The position numbers and the translations under genes were made by a program. DNA of 31,244 nucleotides, taken from positions 1-31,244 of the IMG/VR virus record IMGVR_UViG_3300008110_000654; one strand, 5' to 3'. The notes beneath the pieces were generated by a model, which had not been told where the DNA came from, did no database searches, and saw nothing but the letters and a program-made list of their open reading frames with translations. This DNA comes from a virus. Within the stretch, counting starts at the first letter, position 1, and each line of letters starts with the position of its first letter. Positions 1,735 through 22,522 of this stretch are shown here, in pieces.

Positions 1735-3984
1735 ATGAGACTTTTTTTTATTTTATTACTATTACCATTTGTAACTCATTCGCAAGACACTCTATTTTCA
1801 AAACAACTATCAACGGTAACAATCCGTTCAACCGGTAAGAAATCTACCGAAGCAGCTGTAATAACTACAATTCGTAATTCATCTGTAGTTTCGGATGGAG
1901 TATCGGTTGAATTTATTAAAAAGACACCCGATAGAAATGTAGGTGATGCACTTAAAAGAGTGAGTGGTGTTACAATACAAAACGATAAGTTTGTATTAGT
2001 AAGAGGTTTGGCAGACAGATACAATTCTGCATGGTTAAATAAAACCCCACTACCATCAACGGAACCTGATAGAAAATCTTTTTCCTTTGATATAATCCCA
2101 ACATCATTAATTGATAATATTATTGTTTCCAAATCGGCAGCAGCAAACCTACCGGGTGATTGGTCAGGCGGATTGGTTCAAATTTCAACAAAGGATGTAT
2201 CCGATAACTTTTTTAATATTTCATTGGGAAGTGGTTGGGGTTTGGTTTCAACTTTGAAAAGTTTCAAGTTAGTTCAAGCTACCGAATTCCCTTCCACATT
2301 CCCATCTACTTACAAATACCGAATTAGTGGAAATGGTGATAAGAGGTTATATACAAAGCAATTTAACAATCCGGATGTTAATAATTTTACATCAATTCCA
2401 AACTTAAATGGTGGCCTTTCATTTGGATATAAAAGAGGTAAATGGAATGGATTATTAAGTTCCACAATCAGAAACACATATACTCTCAATTATATTGATA
2501 GAAAAGATTATCAATCATCAACTGAATTAGCATACGATTATAAAGATACTCTATTTACAAAAAGATTTTCCGCAAATGGACTTGTTAACTTAACTTATTT
2601 GGGTGATAATCGATATAGTTGGAAAACATTAGTAAACTACCAAACAGATGATACATATCTAACCCGTAATGGTGATAATTTTGATAATGTTCAGAATGTT
2701 AGGAGCACTTCATCTAATCACCTTAATACAATTGTTATTAATTCACAATTTGATGGTAAGATTAAAACTTTAGATTTTAATTTAGGATACAATTATATTT
2801 TCAGACAACAACCTGATTATAGAGTTAATCCAATTACAAAATCATTAGGTATCAACGAACCTTACGCAACTGCATGGAGAGATACATATCGTTTTTGGAG
2901 TGTGATGGATGAGAATTCTTTCAATGGTAACATCAATAAAGAATTTGGTAAGATTAAAATGGGTGGTAGTTATCTAAAAAAGATTAGAGGATTTAATGCA
3001 AGAGTATTTCGATATCAATCAACCGATATGATGGATGAAATTACAAACAATACTGATAGATATACTGCTGATTTTGATTTAGGTTCTCTTTATTCAATGT
3101 ATGAAAATGAATTTGGTAAATGGAAATTAAATACCGGATTGAGAGGTGAGTATAACCTATTTGATGTAGCAACTGCAGATTTTAGTGGACAGAAAGTAAA
3201 TGTGGATAGAGAGTATTTAGACCTTTTACCTTCACTTAACCTTTCATACAACGAAACTAAAACAAAGTATAGATTTTCGGTAAGTAAAACATTGGCAAGA
3301 CCGGAGTTTAGAGAGGTAGCAAATTTTGCCTATTATGATTTTGTAAGAAACGCACAAATTTTAGGTAACTCAAAGTTAGAAAAATCTGACATATATAATT
3401 TAGACCTCAAATACGAATGGTATCCAAAAGCAGGTGAGAATGTTTCTGTTTCTTTATTCGGTAAAAACTTTATTAAACCAATTGAACAAATTGTAGCAGA
3501 TGGTTCGGTTCCATCAAACTTATTATTAACTTACACAAATCCCAATTCGGCTATTCTATATGGTGTTGAATTGGAAGTTCGTAAAAAGATAAATGATTGG
3601 GTTGATTTCTACACAAACCTTTCAGTAATGAATTCGGAAGTAGAGGTAAATGATATTAAAAGACAATTGCAGGGGCAATCAAACTATGTGTTAAATGGTG
3701 GAGTGAATATACACAAAAATAAAAATACCATAAACATAACCTACAATAGAGTTGGAGATAGAATATCAGCAGTAGGATTTCAGGGTTATCCGGACATCTT
3801 TGAAAATAGTAGAGATGTATTGGATATAACTCTTTTACACAAATTAAATAAAGGTGAAATAAAATTGGCAATGGGTGATGTATTTGCGCAACCATCAATC
3901 TATTACCAAAAGTTACAAAACCGAAATTTGATAAAAACAAACAACGAACAAACGATTTCATTAACATTAAATTTGAATTTATGA
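1735..3984 (+). CDS. TonB-dependent outer-membrane receptor
   Basis: 749 residues. Signal peptide MRLFFILLLLPFVTHSQD, then TVTIRS, which could serve as a TonB box. A plug domain follows at about 45-160, with DVGDALKRVSGVTI-type and FVLVRGLADRYN sequences, then IDNIIVSKSAAANLPGDWSGG and VQISTKD, the usual plug end. Residues about 165-749 are alternating aromatic/polar beta strands of a 22-strand barrel. Bacteroidota homologues often carry an extra N-terminal carboxypeptidase-like domain, absent here. Such receptors import large or scarce substrates using TonB energy. The stop overlaps the start of the next gene (ATGA), so the pair is coupled. No frameshift is seen. A receptor in a phage-like region is unusual; the substrate cannot be told from sequence. 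Confidence 0.93.
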   Translation: MRLFFILLLLPFVTHSQDTLFSKQLSTVTIRSTGKKSTEAAVITTIRNSSVVSDGVSVEFIKKTPDRNVGDALKRVSGVTIQNDKFVLVRGLADRYNSAWLNKTPLPSTEPDRKSFSFDIIPTSLIDNIIVSKSAAANLPGDWSGGLVQISTKDVSDNFFNISLGSGWGLVSTLKSFKLVQATEFPSTFPSTYKYRISGNGDKRLYTKQFNNPDVNNFTSIPNLNGGLSFGYKRGKWNGLLSSTIRNTYTLNYIDRKDYQSSTELAYDYKDTLFTKRFSANGLVNLTYLGDNRYSWKTLVNYQTDDTYLTRNGDNFDNVQNVRSTSSNHLNTIVINSQFDGKIKTLDFNLGYNYIFRQQPDYRVNPITKSLGINEPYATAWRDTYRFWSVMDENSFNGNINKEFGKIKMGGSYLKKIRGFNARVFRYQSTDMMDEITNNTDRYTADFDLGSLYSMYENEFGKWKLNTGLRGEYNLFDVATADFSGQKVNVDREYLDLLPSLNLSYNETKTKYRFSVSKTLARPEFREVANFAYYDFVRNAQILGNSKLEKSDIYNLDLKYEWYPKAGENVSVSLFGKNFIKPIEQIVADGSVPSNLLLTYTNPNSAILYGVELEVRKKINDWVDFYTNLSVMNSEVEVNDIKRQLQGQSNYVLNGGVNIHKNKNTINITYNRVGDRISAVGFQGYPDIFENSRDVLDITLLHKLNKGEIKLAMGDVFAQPSIYYQKLQNRNLIKTNNEQTISLTLNLNL

Positions 3985-5228: not shown

Positions 5229-5825
5229 ATGAAGTCATTTTTGTTGATATTATTTTCGTTTGTATATGTATTTTCTTTTGGACAATTAAGGGATTCGGTT
5301 AGAGTAACAAATCGGGTATTTGATGTTGTATATTCTGAAAAATTACAACAACCAAAGTGGCTAGTTTACTATTCTATAAATAGACCTTCCAATGTGACAA
5401 GAAATGGTTTAGATTTCTATACAGAACCAAATATCAAAACATCAGATGGTGCCGATTACTATGCAAATGTATGGGATAAAGGACATTTGGCACCTGCAGC
5501 AACATTCGCAGATTCTGCACATCTAATGAAACAAACATTTTCCTATCTTAATTGCATATTACAACATCAAGATCTAAATAGAGGGGAATGGAGATTATTA
5601 GAGGAACAAGAACGGATGTGGGATAATGTAGAACCACTAAAGGTAAAGGTAAATATCTTTTTTGATAACACATCACAATTGTTACCAACAGGAGCAACTA
5701 TACCAGCTTTTTTTGTAAAGCACATATACTTTCAAAAATCAAATAAATGGAAGTGTTTTAAATTTAAAAATATAAAACCAACGGTCAGTTGGAAAAATTC
5801 CGAAATAGTTTGTACATCACATTAA
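5229..5825 (+). CDS. Secreted DNA/RNA non-specific endonuclease (NUC1 family)
   Basis: 198 residues with an N-terminal signal peptide (MKSFLLILFSFVYVFSFGQ). DKGHLAP at residues 83-89 is the DRGH motif with catalytic His86. LNRGEW at 116-121 supplies the Mg-binding Asn117, and LLEEQER supplies the conserved Glu of the alpha helix. Short for the family (often about 240) but all core residues are kept. The family cuts single- and double-stranded DNA and RNA outside the cytoplasm. It follows a terminator closely, so it probably has its own promoter. Roles could be nucleotide scavenging, clearing DNA at lysis or attacking rivals; the sequence cannot separate these. Confidence 0.85.
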   Translation: MKSFLLILFSFVYVFSFGQLRDSVRVTNRVFDVVYSEKLQQPKWLVYYSINRPSNVTRNGLDFYTEPNIKTSDGADYYANVWDKGHLAPAATFADSAHLMKQTFSYLNCILQHQDLNRGEWRLLEEQERMWDNVEPLKVKVNIFFDNTSQLLPTGATIPAFFVKHIYFQKSNKWKCFKFKNIKPTVSWKNSEIVCTSH

Positions 5826-5834
5826 ATTACTAAA

Positions 5835-6245
5835 ATGTTTACGCCAAATCATCTTCACTTATTAGTAAAGGGTTATCTGAAATCGCCACCAAAAAATGAA
5901 AAAATTTTAAATACGTTTTTCAAACAATTGGTAACTAGGGTTGGGATGAAGGTTGTAGCAGGACCTACATCCGTATATGTTTCCGAACCAGGAAACGAAG
6001 GAATGACGGGAACCGTCACATTAGCAACATCACACGCATCAATACATGTATGGGATAACGAAAATCCTGCTATGTTTCAATTTGACTTGTATAGTTGTTC
6101 GGCATTTACCGCAAAAGAAGTTTTGGATGAAATAGATTTGTGGTTTGGATTAGAATCTGCACATTGGGTAATGTTTGATAGAAATGGAATGCATTTTTTG
6201 AAAATAGGTAGTGGTGATATAATTAAAAAAAATGAGAAACATTAA
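5835..6245 (+). CDS. speD: S-adenosylmethionine decarboxylase-like protein (SpeD family)
   Basis: 136 residues, the usual size for the short bacterial/archaeal class. GNEGMTGTVTL at 53-63 and TSHASIHVW at 65-73, followed by FDLYSCSAF, match the SpeD core. Ser66 would become the pyruvoyl group after self-cleavage; His71 and Cys88 correspond to the processing and catalytic residues. Usual SpeD has Glu immediately before the cleavage Ser; here it is Thr65, a notable change. SpeD supplies decarboxylated SAM for spermidine synthesis; some phage homologues are reported to have shifted to arginine or ornithine decarboxylation. No spermidine synthase is visible nearby. Overlaps the next gene by 14 nt. 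Confidence 0.82.
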   Translation: MFTPNHLHLLVKGYLKSPPKNEKILNTFFKQLVTRVGMKVVAGPTSVYVSEPGNEGMTGTVTLATSHASIHVWDNENPAMFQFDLYSCSAFTAKEVLDEIDLWFGLESAHWVMFDRNGMHFLKIGSGDIIKKNEKH

Positions 6246-7394: not shown

Positions 7395-7760
7395 GGGGAT
7401 GTTTGGTATTGATTGCCATGCGAATGGTAGTACCACACGTAGTGGGATGGTTCTCCAACCACTTTAATATCGGAACAAAACAACAAACGACGAAATGTCA
7501 ACTATGACCTTCGATGACCTTATGGCCTTCGTTGGTGCTGATTACGCTGTAGCAGCCTAATCCCTCCCGCACACATTGTGGGACTTTAAAAAGAATGTGA
7601 AACCAATGTGGCGTAGGAGCCGAATCGAACTCCTACCACTGTCGGCTAACACGGTGTGAAAATGTTAGATAGGTACTTATTCCGAATAATAAGATAAACG
7701 TGTGAAACGCTGGTATTATGATTACTTGGTAAGACACGGGTTCGACTCCCGTCATCTCCA
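7395..7760 (+). ncRNA. ssrA: tmRNA (phage-encoded, about 366 nt)
   Basis: The 5' GGGGATG pairs with 3' CATCTCC (one G-U) to form the acceptor stem, and the T arm ACGGG-TTCGACT-CCCGT sits just before it, followed by discriminator A7760 and CA. Inside is a reading frame ending GADYAVAA and TAA at 7558-7560, the hydrophobic degron typical of tmRNA tags. It aligns at its start (ACA AAC GAC GAA) with the ANDE start of the E. coli tag. A hairpin TGGTT/AACCA lies just upstream as PK1 candidate. A clear pseudoknot is visible downstream: stem GTAGGAG/CTCCTAC (about 7611-7636) with loop AGCCGA pairing to TCGGCT. tmRNA rescues stalled ribosomes and tags truncated proteins. Confidence 0.93.
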
Positions 7761-7763
7761 CAA

Positions 7764-7813
7764 ATATCGCTGAAACCTGTGATAACCTTACATATCGTAG
7801 GTTTCAACGATAT
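7764..7813 (+). terminator. Long hairpin after the tmRNA
   Basis: Arms 7764-7778 and 7799-7813 (ATATCGCTGAAACCT / AGGTTTCAACGATAT) pair over 15 positions with one mismatch around a 20-nt loop. It follows the tmRNA by 3 nt and is followed by an A-rich, not T-rich, stretch. It may be a 3' processing or stability element or a weak terminator. Confidence 0.5.
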
Positions 7814-8851: not shown

Positions 8852-9812
8852 AAATCACACTACTGATTGAATATGGGAGTAGTATAAACGGAGTATCCTT
8901 AACAGGACATAAGTTTGGCCCATATCCACAAAGTTCTTTAAAAGATTGAAAATATTGCACATAGTAGATTCGTTCTACATAGTGTATGACCGCCGCCTAT
9001 GGTGGTTAAATAAACTACGAAAGTAGGATAAAGTGGGTATAGTTGGTTTACTATATCTGCGGCATCAGAAATGGTGCTTGAGTAGGCAAGTGGGATATCA
9101 TTTGAGCTTTGTACGAAAGGGTAACACTATATCGGAAGAGTTTGAGTGACCAGGGATATGTAGAATCTTTGGTTGAGTTGGGAACAACAATAAGAATAAC
9201 CCATAGAATGCCTGTGAGAAGTATGAGGCTAATCACCTTATACCATTGCGACATTCAATTTCAAAGTAAACTTAAAACCAAGCTATCCGAAAGGACGTAA
9301 GGTAAGTTGATGTACAGGTGGTGCTGTTATTAACCTTTAATGTGGGACACCAATCCCTATTAATGAAGTGGACTTAAAAAATGGTACTGACGATAGTACA
9401 TTGGGTAGTTTAGTATTCTCTCGTTCAAAAGATGGGGGAGCTGGTTGGCAAGCCACTACCTGAACAATCTACAAACCAAATTATTTGCATATGGATTGCA
9501 AAATTCAATTAACAAATAAGCATGAGTGCTTGCCAGTTACGGACGAAAGGTGTCTACATAGTATTGGGTTGTCCAATGCCACGATACCTCCGCAAGAGGT
9601 CTGTGATTGTAACGAAAAGTTTCTAACACCGCAAGTGTGAATTAGCTCGGCAGAGTTGGAGAAATAGAGTAATTACAGAGTAGTCAGTAACTTAATGAGT
9701 GGTTAGCATTACTAACCGACACTGAACGAATACCATTCAAAAGGTGGTGGATAAGAAAGGAACTAATAATCTTTCTAAAGGTTGTTCAACCCAACGAGTA
9801 ATCTCATCGTTT
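8852..9812 (+). ncRNA. Large ornate non-coding RNA (about 960 nt)
   Basis: No plausible gene here: ORFs are short and lack the local start context. The stretch is saturated with perfect helices: a 5' pseudoknot (ACTACT/AGTAGT at 8859-8883, its loop ATATGGG pairing with CCCATAT 8919-8925); GTAGA/TCTAC 8964-8978; GACCGCC/GGTGGTT 8988-9007; CTAC-GAAA-GTAG 9015-9026; TATAGT/ACTATA 9038-9055; GTTG-GGAA-CAAC 9177-9188; AACTTA/TAAGTT enclosing TCC-GAAA-GGA near 9268-9308; GTACT/AGTAC near 9384-9399; AAGCA/TGCTT 9518-9531; ATTGG/CCAAT 9563-9577; ACCTC-CGCAA-GAGGT 9586-9600; ACAC-CGCAA-GTGT 9626-9638; GGTTAG/CTAACC 9701-9717; AGAAAG/CTTTCT 9754-9776. Size, tRNA neighbours and phage setting resemble GOLLD and ROOL RNAs, but I cannot assign it to either. 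Co-transcription with the tRNA-Gly 5 nt downstream is likely. Confidence 0.75.
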
Positions 9813-9817
9813 TATAA

Positions 9818-9888
9818 GCGGAGTTAGTGTAACGATAGCACATCGGACTTCCAGTTCGAAGGATGTGGTTTAATTCCATGGCCCCGCT
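9818..9888 (+). tRNA. tRNA-Gly(TCC), first copy
   Basis: Acceptor GCGGAGT/GCCCCGC with one A-C mismatch, anticodon stem TCGGA/TTCGA, loop CTTCCAG with TCC, T loop TTTAATT, U73 as expected for Gly. It starts 5 nt after the large RNA region. Confidence 0.88.
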
Positions 9889-18881: not shown

Positions 18882-21143
18882 ATGAGTTGGTACAAATCCG
18901 CAGTTGGTAAGGTAAAAAATTATGCTTCATCCTTTTGGTATGATGATTATGATACGTCCTTTGATTATCTTGAAGAATATGGTTCATTCAAAAAAACAGA
19001 TTTGGATGCGTATAAGAAAACCCACAACCTTTACAAATTAGCATCGGTTCGTAGGGCTATATCAAACTTTGTTCAAATTGTAACGAACAAATCTATCCCC
19101 GTTTCATTCGCAACAAAAAGTGATAGTAAAACGGATGGTAAGAAAGTTATTCTTTCCGCCGATGTGGATGATAACTTTGATGTTTCCGTTGGTTTGGCAT
19201 TACACGAAGGTTCACATATTGTACTTTCTGATTTTGAAATGTTGGGAGCACTTGCTAATACTAAAGGTGGTATAGAAAGTTTACATCGTGGTATTCGATA
19301 CCAAAAACAAAAAGCAGAGCTTGAAGGGGCTGTTGATATCTATGATGAAGAATTTATATTAAAATCAATAAACGAATATATTGATGCAAGATGCCCAAAA
19401 TATTCAACCCTTCTTAAAGAAATTTATACATCAAATGGTAAAATTGGTAAGTATGGCAATCCAACGGATGAAGTACACAATGTTATTCAGGGGTTGAATA
19501 ATTGGATTGAAGATAGGCGTATTGATCATTATATATACAATTCGGCGCCTGGTTATAGAGATTACTATCTTTCTATGTATGAACATTATTTCAATGATAA
19601 ATCTGTAACTAAAGGTATCAAATCCGATGAGTTTACGGAAGAAACGTTGGATAGTTATATGTTCCGAATTATCAACCTACTGAATAGTGAAACGAATCTA
19701 TCCAAACTAAAAGGACTTCGTACTATATATCGTATGTTGGATTTGAAGAACATCAGTAGATTGAAATCATCGCAAGATTCATTGGATTTGGCTATCAACA
19801 TTGTTTCTGAAATACTGAAAAATGTTACCGAAAACCAACAGCAAAATGGTGCCGGTAAAGGTAGTGGTAATAATACTGATGGTCAACCAGAAAATGGTAA
19901 CGCTGATGTAAACGAAATGGGTGATGGTGATAATGATGATATGGGTGGCACTAATGGTGGTGCTGATGTGAGTGGGCAGAATGGTTCTCAATCAAATCAG
20001 AATGGTGGTGATGATGAAGGTAAGGATATGTTATCTAAAAACGCTCTTCAATCTCTACTTAAAAAGTTCCAAAAACAAAAGGACTTTCTTAATGGTAATG
20101 TAAAGAAGAAAACGATAACCAAACAAGAGAATGAAAAGTTGGATGATATTCAGGAATCAGGCACCGAATTAGTTCGTGTTGGTTCGGATTATGAAAACCA
20201 TAGAGGTGATCAAATTGGTAAGGGTGTTGATTGTATCGTAGTGAAGAACCTAACAAGTAAGTTGCTTGAAAGTTCAGATTTTCCATTTACAAATAGTTCT
20301 TGGAATTCGGATAAAGCGGTATCTACACCATATGTTGATGAAGTGAAGCGAGGTACTATATTGGGTACTATATTGGGTAAGAAGCTACAAATTCGTAGTG
20401 AAAGTCGAGATACTATCTTTAGTCGCTTGAAGAAGGGTAAAATTGATGGACGTATGGTTGCATCGCTTGGGTTTGATAATGATAACGTATTCTATCAACG
20501 TGATGTTGACCAATACAAAAAAGCAAACCTACATATCTCAATCGATTACTCCGGCTCAATGAGTGGTAGTAAATTGAGAAAGGCAATTGTATCTACCGTC
20601 GCTATTGTAAAAGCATGTGAAATGGCACGTAATATCAATACGCAAGTATCGGTTCGTTCAACTGATACGGGTGGTAGGTCATTACCATATGTTGCGTTGG
20701 TTCACGATAGTAGGAAAAACACATTCAAACAATTCTCATATTTTATGAGTGCTCTTGATTGTACCAATACTACACCTGAAGGTTTGTGTTTTGAAGCAAT
20801 TATGAAAGAACTTATCCCATCTACAAATGATACGGATAGTTATTTCCTAAACTTTTCGGACGGACAACCAACATATAATATTCACAATGGTAATGATTCT
20901 ATCAACTATGGTGGACGGCCAGCTGCAAAACATACCCGTAAGCAAGTGAAGAAAATGCAAACAAATGGTTTGAATATTCTTTCGTACTTTATTACAGAGT
21001 ATAGTTCTGAAAGATTTCAACAATCAACAGATTGGGAAATATTCAAAGAGTGTTATGGACCCGATGCCAAATACATAAATGTAGAAAATATGATTGAGGT
21101 AGCAAAAACAATGAATGAATTGTTCCTTAAAAAAGAAAGATAA
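18882..21143 (+). CDS. Fusion of HExxH metallopeptidase-like domain and VWA domain (CobT-like)
   Basis: 753 residues. An N-terminal domain carries LALHEGSHIVLSDFE with His108, Glu109 and His112, a zincin-type site. Residues about 316-385 are a low-complexity Asn/Gly/Asp linker. The C-terminal VWA domain has the MIDAS DYSGS starting at Asp555, then the Thr of NTTPEG and the Asp of NFSDGQPT. VWA proteins of this design partner a MoxR/CobS/CbbQ AAA+ ATPase, which is the next gene. Such pairs remodel or insert metals into target proteins; phage homologues are often labelled CobT, but no cobalamin genes are near. The extra HExxH suggests it may also cut its target. Confidence 0.85.
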   Translation: MSWYKSAVGKVKNYASSFWYDDYDTSFDYLEEYGSFKKTDLDAYKKTHNLYKLASVRRAISNFVQIVTNKSIPVSFATKSDSKTDGKKVILSADVDDNFDVSVGLALHEGSHIVLSDFEMLGALANTKGGIESLHRGIRYQKQKAELEGAVDIYDEEFILKSINEYIDARCPKYSTLLKEIYTSNGKIGKYGNPTDEVHNVIQGLNNWIEDRRIDHYIYNSAPGYRDYYLSMYEHYFNDKSVTKGIKSDEFTEETLDSYMFRIINLLNSETNLSKLKGLRTIYRMLDLKNISRLKSSQDSLDLAINIVSEILKNVTENQQQNGAGKGSGNNTDGQPENGNADVNEMGDGDNDDMGGTNGGADVSGQNGSQSNQNGGDDEGKDMLSKNALQSLLKKFQKQKDFLNGNVKKKTITKQENEKLDDIQESGTELVRVGSDYENHRGDQIGKGVDCIVVKNLTSKLLESSDFPFTNSSWNSDKAVSTPYVDEVKRGTILGTILGKKLQIRSESRDTIFSRLKKGKIDGRMVASLGFDNDNVFYQRDVDQYKKANLHISIDYSGSMSGSKLRKAIVSTVAIVKACEMARNINTQVSVRSTDTGGRSLPYVALVHDSRKNTFKQFSYFMSALDCTNTTPEGLCFEAIMKELIPSTNDTDSYFLNFSDGQPTYNIHNGNDSINYGGRPAAKHTRKQVKKMQTNGLNILSYFITEYSSERFQQSTDWEIFKECYGPDAKYINVENMIEVAKTMNELFLKKER

Positions 21144-21147
21144 AGTG

Positions 21148-21172
21148 AAGGGGGTTAATAACCCCCTTTTTT
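21148..21172 (+). terminator. Intrinsic terminator between VWA and AAA+ genes
   Basis: AAGGGGGTT / AACCCCCTT with a 3-nt loop and T6 tail, 5 nt after the VWA stop. It should reduce, and so set, expression of the ATPase relative to its partner. Confidence 0.9.
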
Positions 21173-21217
21173 AATAAAAATAGTATAAAAACAAATCACC
21201 AAAAAAAAAAGTCAATT

Positions 21218-22522
21218 ATGAAAAAGAAAACTGTTACTAAAACCGCAAAAACAAAAACTATGGCTCGTAAAACTGCAAAGCGTGTGAGTACACGTAAAAG
21301 TACTCGTAAGACATTAGATACAAATATTGGTTTCACCGATGAGTGTTACAAAAGTATTCAAATCGGACGTTCGTTTGCATTGATGAATACCGCAGGTGAT
21401 GTTTCCCAAAAGGTAACCGGAATCAGTAAGGTTAAAATGAAACAGGCTCATACCGAAGATAAAGCACTCCGTGCATATGTTGGTAAGACGGGTAATGTAT
21501 CTTACAAAATGGTTGAGATGGATGAGTTCAAAAGACTTGCAAACGTAATTGATGACACCGCTTGTGATAGTGTAAGTGAAGCATTTGAAACACACGAACA
21601 ACTGAAGCAATTTATCCATGAGAAAGGTGGTGAATTGAAACCCGAAGGATTGTTCATCGAAGGATTGAAGTGGAAGTATCTACTCCGTTCAGCAGTTCGT
21701 GCTAAAAACATTATGTTGTTAGGTCCAACTGGTTGTGGTAAAACACTTGCCGCTCAATCGTTGGTTAAATCCCTAAAGCGTCCTGATTACTATTTCAACT
21801 TGGGTGCAACGCAAGATGCCCGTGCTACTCTTATCGGTAACACACACTTTAACAAAGAATCCGGTACATTCTTTAGTGAATCGGCCTTCGTTAAAGCAAT
21901 CAAAACTCCTAACGCAATCATTTTGCTTGATGAGTTGAGCCGTGCACATCCAGAAGCTGCTAACATTCTTATGACTGTGTTGGACCAAAACCAACGTTAC
22001 CTTCGTTTGGATGAGGCAATCGATTCACCTATTGTAAAAGTTGCAAGTGGTGTTACATTCATCGCTACTGCAAACGTAGGTAATGAGTACACCGCAACTC
22101 GTATTATGGACCGAGCCCTTCTCGATCGTTTCGTAACTATCGAAATGGATTTGTTGGATAAGCAAAGTGAATACGAATTGTTAAAATTCAAATTCCCTGA
22201 AGCTGATGATTATTCATTGAACGCTTTGGCTGAGATTGCTGAAACAACCCGTCAACTTATCAAAACCGATATGAGTAAGGTTTCTACTATTATCTCCACT
22301 CGTGTTAATGTTGAGGCTGCCGGACTTATCTATGATGGTTTCACATTGATGGAAGCTGCAGAGATTTCAATCCTTCCTTATTTCAGTAATGATGGTGGAT
22401 TGGATAGTGAGCGTGTGTTTGTAAAACAACTTGTTCAGAAATATATTAAAACTGATGATAGTTCACAACTCTTCAACGAAGTGAATGATGAACAATCAAC
22501 AGATGAAACTATTGTTTGGTAG
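21218..22522 (+). CDS. MoxR/CobS-like AAA+ ATPase
   Basis: 434 residues. Residues 1-36 form a basic Lys/Thr/Arg tail (MKKKTVTKTAKTKTMARK), unusual for the family and possibly nucleic-acid binding. Walker A GPTGCGKT begins near residue 169, Walker B IILLDELSRAHPEA lies near 232-245, and sensor 1 is FIATANVG near 285. RIMDRALLDRF provides the arginine-finger/sensor region of MoxR-type ATPases. Adjacent to the VWA partner, so the two should form the usual ATPase-VWA chaperone complex. Base composition is a little richer in C than its neighbours by eye (ACCGC, CGTGC codons), perhaps reflecting high expression. Confidence 0.9.
   Translation: MKKKTVTKTAKTKTMARKTAKRVSTRKSTRKTLDTNIGFTDECYKSIQIGRSFALMNTAGDVSQKVTGISKVKMKQAHTEDKALRAYVGKTGNVSYKMVEMDEFKRLANVIDDTACDSVSEAFETHEQLKQFIHEKGGELKPEGLFIEGLKWKYLLRSAVRAKNIMLLGPTGCGKTLAAQSLVKSLKRPDYYFNLGATQDARATLIGNTHFNKESGTFFSESAFVKAIKTPNAIILLDELSRAHPEAANILMTVLDQNQRYLRLDEAIDSPIVKVASGVTFIATANVGNEYTATRIMDRALLDRFVTIEMDLLDKQSEYELLKFKFPEADDYSLNALAEIAETTRQLIKTDMSKVSTIISTRVNVEAAGLIYDGFTLMEAAEISILPYFSNDGGLDSERVFVKQLVQKYIKTDDSSQLFNEVNDEQSTDETIVW

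Follow-up and report, generated by a model that had tools for sequence, protein, structure and literature searches.

A tmRNA gene with a long, conserved tag in a virus fragment of probable Bacteroidota host

The window (the whole stretch of DNA analyzed here) is a 31,244-base virus record and so is likely to be only part of a larger phage. It almost certainly carries a real tmRNA gene (7395–7760) with an unusually long tag, as a sequence-only reading of the same DNA had proposed: 23 residues compared with 9–10 in the tmRNAs of the likely host. The tag occurs on virus contigs, its peptide is under selection, and it has been kept in related viruses while the rest of the RNA changed.

Detection and structure of the tmRNA gene

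Rfam model RF00023 identified a complete, one-piece tmRNA in the window, matching all 374 model positions (1–374) with 75.1 bits (E 1.1e-27) against a gathering score, the curated cut-off, of 47 bits, and so bore out the location given in the sequence-only reading. The match spans 7395–7763, while the tmRNA gene itself ends at 7760 (Table 1); the 3' CCA is absent from the gene, and CAA are the next bases after 7760. The model also matched in all 30 large related contigs, 29 of them over the cut-off. ARAGORN, which the reading had also proposed running, gave a divided result: it called most of the relatives' tmRNAs but reported 16 tRNAs in the window without the tmRNA gene among them. This omission is likely due to a non-standard context upstream of the tag, given parallels in two relatives. 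One (L075) has the same C as the window upstream of the tag, and ARAGORN started its tag wrongly (ADYAVAA); the other (L028), with the context AGUAAAU, received no tmRNA call.

The tRNA-like domain contains the acceptor stem, the T arm, and a G-U third acceptor pair, the last being present in 34 of 35 sequences, window included. This pair is the alanine identity element needed by alanyl-tRNA synthetase. Pairing across 35 relatives reached 100% of cells in the T arm and 82%–86% in helix 2, with compensatory changes in both. The stems of pseudoknot 1 were re-formed with other bases in relatives (AGAGG/CCTCT and AGGCG/CGCCT; TGTAC/GTACA and GTGC/GCAC). When 12 sequences were searched singly, stems of pseudoknots 1 and 2 were recovered from differing bases, except that pseudoknot 2 was not found in one relative (L347). 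Over the 35-member alignment, the drawn structure had 74.5% of cells paired and 214 doubly changed cells, compared with 39%–51% and 58–89 in controls with partners slid, a comparison that somewhat favors the drawn structure as it was drawn from the window. A hairpin lies directly after the tmRNA and, from its letters, is a possible terminator or 3' processing signal.

Table 1. Positions of the tmRNA gene, its parts, and the adjoining hairpin in the window
Feature	Position	Strand	Details
tmRNA gene (mature RNA)	7395–7760	+	RF00023 and alignment with 34 relatives
Acceptor stem, 5' half GGGGATG	7395–7401	+	Pairs with CATCTCC 7753–7759, 7/7 pairs
Helix 2, 5' strand	7427–7440	+	Pairs with 7698–7704 and 7713–7719
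Pseudoknot 1, upstream of resume codon	7442–7476	+	GTGG/CCAC (7442–7445 with 7459–7462), GTTCT/GGAAC (7450–7454 with 7472–7476)
Resume-codon selector ACAAAC (family: AUAANY)	7483–7488	+	Alignment to relatives; function from PMC2481249
Tag reading frame DEMSTMTFDDLMAFVGADYAVAA, 23 codons and TAA	7489–7560	+	Coded by 7489–7557, stop 7558–7560; homology to ARAGORN-called tags, peptide-level selection
Extra conserved segment STMTFDDLMAFVG, missing from host tags	7498–7536	+	pN/pS
Pseudoknot 2, downstream of tag	7566–7599	+	CCCGC/GTGGG, CACATT/AATGTG; compensatory changes in relatives
Pseudoknot 3 (probable)	7613–7646	+	GTAGGAG/CTCCTAC (7613–7619 with 7630–7636), CCGA/TCGG (7620–7623 with 7642–7645); from sequence only
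T arm ACGGG TTCGACT CCCGT	7736–7752	+	5/5 pairs
Hairpin directly after tmRNA, ATATCGCTGAAACCT / AGGTTTCAACGATAT	7764–7813	+	From sequence only

The tag and selection on its peptide

Translation very probably resumes at GAC 7489, judging by alignment. Most relatives have AUAA(A/C/G)(C/U) immediately 5' of the first tag codon, and the tag start called by ARAGORN in relatives is the codon homologous to GAC 7489. The window departs from the family consensus in this upstream context at one base, 7484, the equivalent of U85 in Escherichia coli (U to C), and keeps A 7485, the equivalent of A86. In E. coli, the change of U85 to C is tolerated and harmless, and A86 is essential (PMC2481249). The sequence-only reading had placed the resume codon at ACA 7483, with a 25-residue tag starting TN; alignment to the AUAANY relatives shows that this is two codons too early and replaces it with the 23-residue frame. 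The reading had also named a resume codon much nearer GADYAVAA as the outcome contrary to a long tag, and instead we found purifying selection on codons well upstream of that end. We rejected an independent small protein starting from internal ATG codons, as the ATG codons are missing from the equivalent position in many relatives (AEELSSFTFEDAM..., GEEKSSFTWEDAM...).

The same long tag is widespread among related viruses. We first scanned IMG/VR for DNA encoding ADYAVAA-stop, leaving every third position free. There were 96 hits; in each of them, as in the window, the frame continues upstream into a long tag. ARAGORN called most of these as tmRNAs with 23–25-residue tags (e.g., DEMSTMTFEDLMAFVGADYAVAA, AEELSSFTFEDAMAFVGADYAVAA, and GEEKSSFTWEDAMAFIGADYAVAA). 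Further IMG/VR scans brought the family to more than 100 related virus fragments with 95 distinct tmRNAs, 64 of which share pairwise identities below 90%. Tag length in these 95 varies by whole codons only, with 23 residues in 34 sequences, 24 in 53, 25 in eight, and no other lengths. The family pattern is S[ST][MFW]TF[ED]D[ALV]M[AS]F[VI]GADYA[VLI]AA, which agrees with the GADYAVAA end and the hydrophobic and acidic middle described in the sequence-only reading. That reading took VAA to replace the usual LAA; the ending is as described but is not rare, since relatives have LAA, IAA, or VSA. Tags of the Caulobacter type end in AVAA.

Conservation was concentrated in the peptide. Median identity was 43% outside the tag compared with 76% of amino acids within it, and DEMSTMTFDDLMAFVGADYAVAA recurs unchanged in several relatives, with tmRNA identity to the window of 67% or less. 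The 13 codons before ADYAVAA, blocks that the first search left unconstrained, vary mostly at third positions (p ~0.0005, column shuffling), and the extra segment has a pN/pS of 0.32 in frame compared with 1.26 and 1.82 when read out of frame. We interpret these patterns as selection on the peptide, its extra part included. Among 94 tags, the S, T, F, G, A, D, and Y positions were invariant, the invariance of ADYA being partly fixed by the search patterns, and M and D were near-invariant; the C-terminal [VLI]AA was present in 93, the remaining tag having VSA. Retention of the same long tag in so many fragments makes a function for the extra part very probable, and we are highly confident that it is functional as a peptide.

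Host, proposed role, and competing explanations

Several features point to a Bacteroidota host, which we regard as quite likely. The promoter motif TTTG-N17-21-TANNTTTG occurs seven times in the window against 1.9 expected, and the window encodes a TonB-dependent receptor whose barrel, of the OMP_b-brl_3 family, is of the Bacteroidota type. This receptor (1735–3984; 749 aa, Plug and OMP_b-brl_3 barrel), a possible block to superinfection, has relatives in records of huge phages and of fecal phages. Chromosomal tmRNAs of Bacteroidota were sampled with a tag-blind pattern for the tRNA-like domain (118 genomes, 32 matches, 30 loci fetched, plus three genomes reached otherwise), and ARAGORN read tags of 9–10 residues in 33 of 33 from this mostly tag-blind sample. 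The comparison with host ssrA that the sequence-only reading had proposed thus sets the window tag apart from the host GENNYALAA type. The window tmRNA resembles Bacteroidota-type ssrA (RF00023, GENNYALAA) in its fold, G-U pair, pseudoknot 1 before the resume codon, A86 equivalent, and hydrophobic-Ala-Ala end; it differs in tag length, in its extra acidic and hydrophobic segment, and in its occurrence on virus contigs only. A search for ADYA[VLI]AA-stop across 84,980 genomes of bacteria and archaea gave no matches, where rough arithmetic predicts ~3–4 by chance, so that zero is somewhat low and the conclusion unchanged. Accordingly, we rejected an origin of the tag in the host, or as a prophage or ssrA remnant. 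A search of 30 large relatives (75–271 kb) detected the controls but no SmpB gene, which would mean that host SmpB must serve; these contigs may be incomplete, and the absence is no proof.

A reasonably probable account is that this is the working tmRNA of a large Bacteroidota phage, charged by the host, whose tag combines a ClpXP end with a phage-specific second element that alters the removal of tagged proteins. Host alanyl-tRNA synthetase would charge it via the G-U third pair, and host SmpB would bring it to stalled ribosomes, where translation would resume at GAC 7489 and append the 23 residues of the tag. The C-terminal ADYA[VLI]AA would engage host ClpXP as usual, and S[ST]xTF[ED]DxM[AS]F[VI]G would form an additional, phage-specific element for recognition or engagement, changing either the speed at which tagged proteins are removed during infection or the AAA+ protease or adaptor used. 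Its partner might be a phage protein or an adaptor, a different AAA+ protease, or a second site on the same protease. For the extra segment itself, we lean towards a role in degradation. In other bacteria, ClpX recognizes tags by an -[VLI]AA end. With that end retained, degradation is the default expectation, and proteins carrying the window tag are most likely still degraded. The suggestion in the sequence-only reading that a long tag alters which host protease or adaptor recognizes tagged proteins is plausible. Its other suggestion, rescue independent of host degradation, finds no support: [VLI]AA is near-universal, as expected under selection for a ClpXP signal. The tag is unlike that of the host and was kept while the rest of the RNA changed, and thus the gain to the phage depends on the peptide, beyond freeing ribosomes.

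A rather unlikely alternative is that the long tag sends proteins to another machine, such as Lon as in Mollicutes or a phage ClpP or adaptor, with the host pathway bypassed or shared. Mollicutes are without active ClpXP, and long tags there, such as the Mesoplasma florum tag ending in NYAFA, are read by Lon (PMC9382460). The window family resembles these tags in length and hydrophobic middle, but its tags end in YA[VLI]AA (93 of 94) or YAVSA (one) and none in YAFA, the sequences are unrelated, and the Mollicute genes are chromosomal. A phage protease is suggested by a ClpP homologue with an aligned Ser/His/Asp triad, located 3.5–4.8 kb upstream of the tmRNA in nine of the 52 family loci with enough flank (L418–L422, L062, L358, L374, and L390), always on the same strand and within a block of tRNAs and short conserved ORFs. 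Just upstream of the tmRNA, ~14 loci also have a conserved small ORF, MACH...EEYELCAEIKKIL (e.g., L419:2604-2918, minus strand, MACH...SQYKELLxNCMDDLIxxEEYELCAEIKKIL); it had no convincing Pfam family, and a diverged paralogue is found near ClpP. However, ClpP was not seen in 25 of the 30 large relatives or among the window ORFs tested, the same tag occurs with or without it, and phage ClpP is also similar to head-maturation proteases (PHROG 94). Since ClpP and the small ORF are both missing from most relatives and ClpP is head-maturation-like, neither is a general partner. A phage Hsp100/ClpX partner for ClpP was also rejected: a ClpB_D2-small protein occurred in three contigs only, none with ClpP, and these look like one phage (same tag, same scores).

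The remaining explanations leave degradation or the peptide aside. A tag that stabilizes or relocates proteins, giving rescue without protein loss, would fit a conserved, phage-only extra segment, but we consider it improbable because [VLI]AA is, with GADYA, among the most constrained features, for no obvious reason if degradation is avoided. It is very improbable that the RNA chiefly competes with host tmRNA for SmpB, its tag being incidental: such competition has been proposed for the tRNA-like-only form of mycobacteriophage DS6A, which serves as a precedent (PMC4131195 and PMC11915505), but the window tmRNA has a complete mRNA-like domain, pseudoknot 1, a resume context, and a selected tag. 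Least credible is a long frame that is a neutral by-product, with only the last 8–10 residues mattering. A stop-free frame of 23 codons is by itself weak evidence, and ARAGORN reads only ADYAVAA in L075; this explanation is nonetheless already contradicted by third-position variation and low pN/pS upstream of ADYAVAA, by the invariant S, T, F, and G with near-invariant M and D, and by length changes in whole codons only.

Long tags in other phages and further features of the window

Long tags were also found in viruses outside this family. A tag-blind pattern run on viral contigs returned 120 rows, including 74 newly fetched tmRNAs readable by ARAGORN (L427–L533); a further 13 rows repeated loci retrieved earlier, and those listed all belong to the family of the window. 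Of the 74 viral tags, 43 had 8–15 residues, 31 had 21–31, and none had 16–20, and the share of long tags is only indicative because the sample was taken in file order, not at random, and IMG/VR is redundant. The long tags fall in several unrelated groups (e.g., GNTFAKMATLGLTREASVVAA, ANNNVDMAPSVAEADAILAKHGWAEEAAVAA, DNTISRQEEGARIINMAFANVEMAVAA, and GNTSIWDVINGFVGAPATEVEYAVAA) and include relatives of the window tag with other ends (ANVELSTMTFEDAMAWMNSFDYAVAA); some long-tag pairs hold their peptide pattern at 50%–55% RNA identity. We tentatively suggest that viral tmRNAs form a short and a long class and that long two-part tags may be a general strategy of phages with several independent origins. 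Selected, lineage-specific segments ahead of the -AA end would recruit a phage-chosen protease, adaptor, or other partner, and ribosome rescue during infection would then feed proteins into a phage-controlled route.

Cultured phages of Bacteroidota provide one parallel. In Cellulophaga phages Calle_1 (L400) and phi38:1 (L424), ARAGORN found a 22-residue tag, AQIEANMEAVNAILNLEVAVGV, which is long like that of the window but unrelated to it and without the usual AA end. The phi38:1 tmRNA is unannotated, and a 'hypothetical protein' on the opposite strand overlaps it. A search for relatives of the Calle-type tag recovered only the same phages and no divergent ones. Among 50,697 deposited phages, there was no close DNA and no near-identical tag for the window, and three other long tags were likewise not found, whereas the Calle tag, used as a positive control, was recovered. 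In crAss-like phages (L396–L399), ARAGORN found permuted tmRNAs with a shared tag GN(N/F)(F/Y)VTDYT... (e.g., GNNFVTDYTQLAVA), in agreement with the deposited SsrA annotation. The 484-kb phage record LR756508.1 has two RF00023 matches over the cut-off, 92434–92880 and 414804–414915 (L404 and L410); one is only 112 bases long and resembles a tmRNA consisting of the tRNA-like domain only.

Phage-borne tmRNAs are themselves not new, being found in phage G (Bacillus), mycobacteriophages Bxz1 and Wildcat, pelagimyophages, Melnitz, and huge phages; a 2014 survey listed ten phages with tmRNA genes (PMC4131195). The accessible portions of PMC4131195, PMC11915505, PMC9004378, and PMC7162821 describe no long-tag class for reported phage tmRNAs. 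The huge-phage paper records tmRNAs and SmpB but gives no tags (PMC7162821). In the 2025 paper on the tmRNA database (97,179 sequences), the commonest tag length is 10 residues and very short tags are reported, and its accessible portions do not mention long phage tags (PMC11915505), which the tmRNA website, supplements, or subscription journals may already list without comment. Long tags are already known from Mycoplasma/Mollicutes. As to why phages carry tmRNA, the Melnitz paper offers only guesses: the RNA might keep the hijacked machinery of the host running or serve to degrade host proteins (PMC9004378). New natural degradation tags could also be useful as tools.

The window contains other features alongside the tmRNA gene. 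A GOLLD RNA (RF02032, 295.8 bits) lies at 9401–9810 inside the tRNA cluster and is also present in nine of the 30 large relatives; a weak tRNA, detected by Rfam only, follows seven bases after it (9818–9888). Two adjacent genes at 18882–22522 are similar to CobT and CobS (PHROG cobalamin/porphyrin families, AAA_5 ATPase). The polyamine enzyme S-adenosylmethionine decarboxylase (PF02675) is encoded at 5835–6245 and adjoins a DNA/RNA non-specific endonuclease at 5229–5825.
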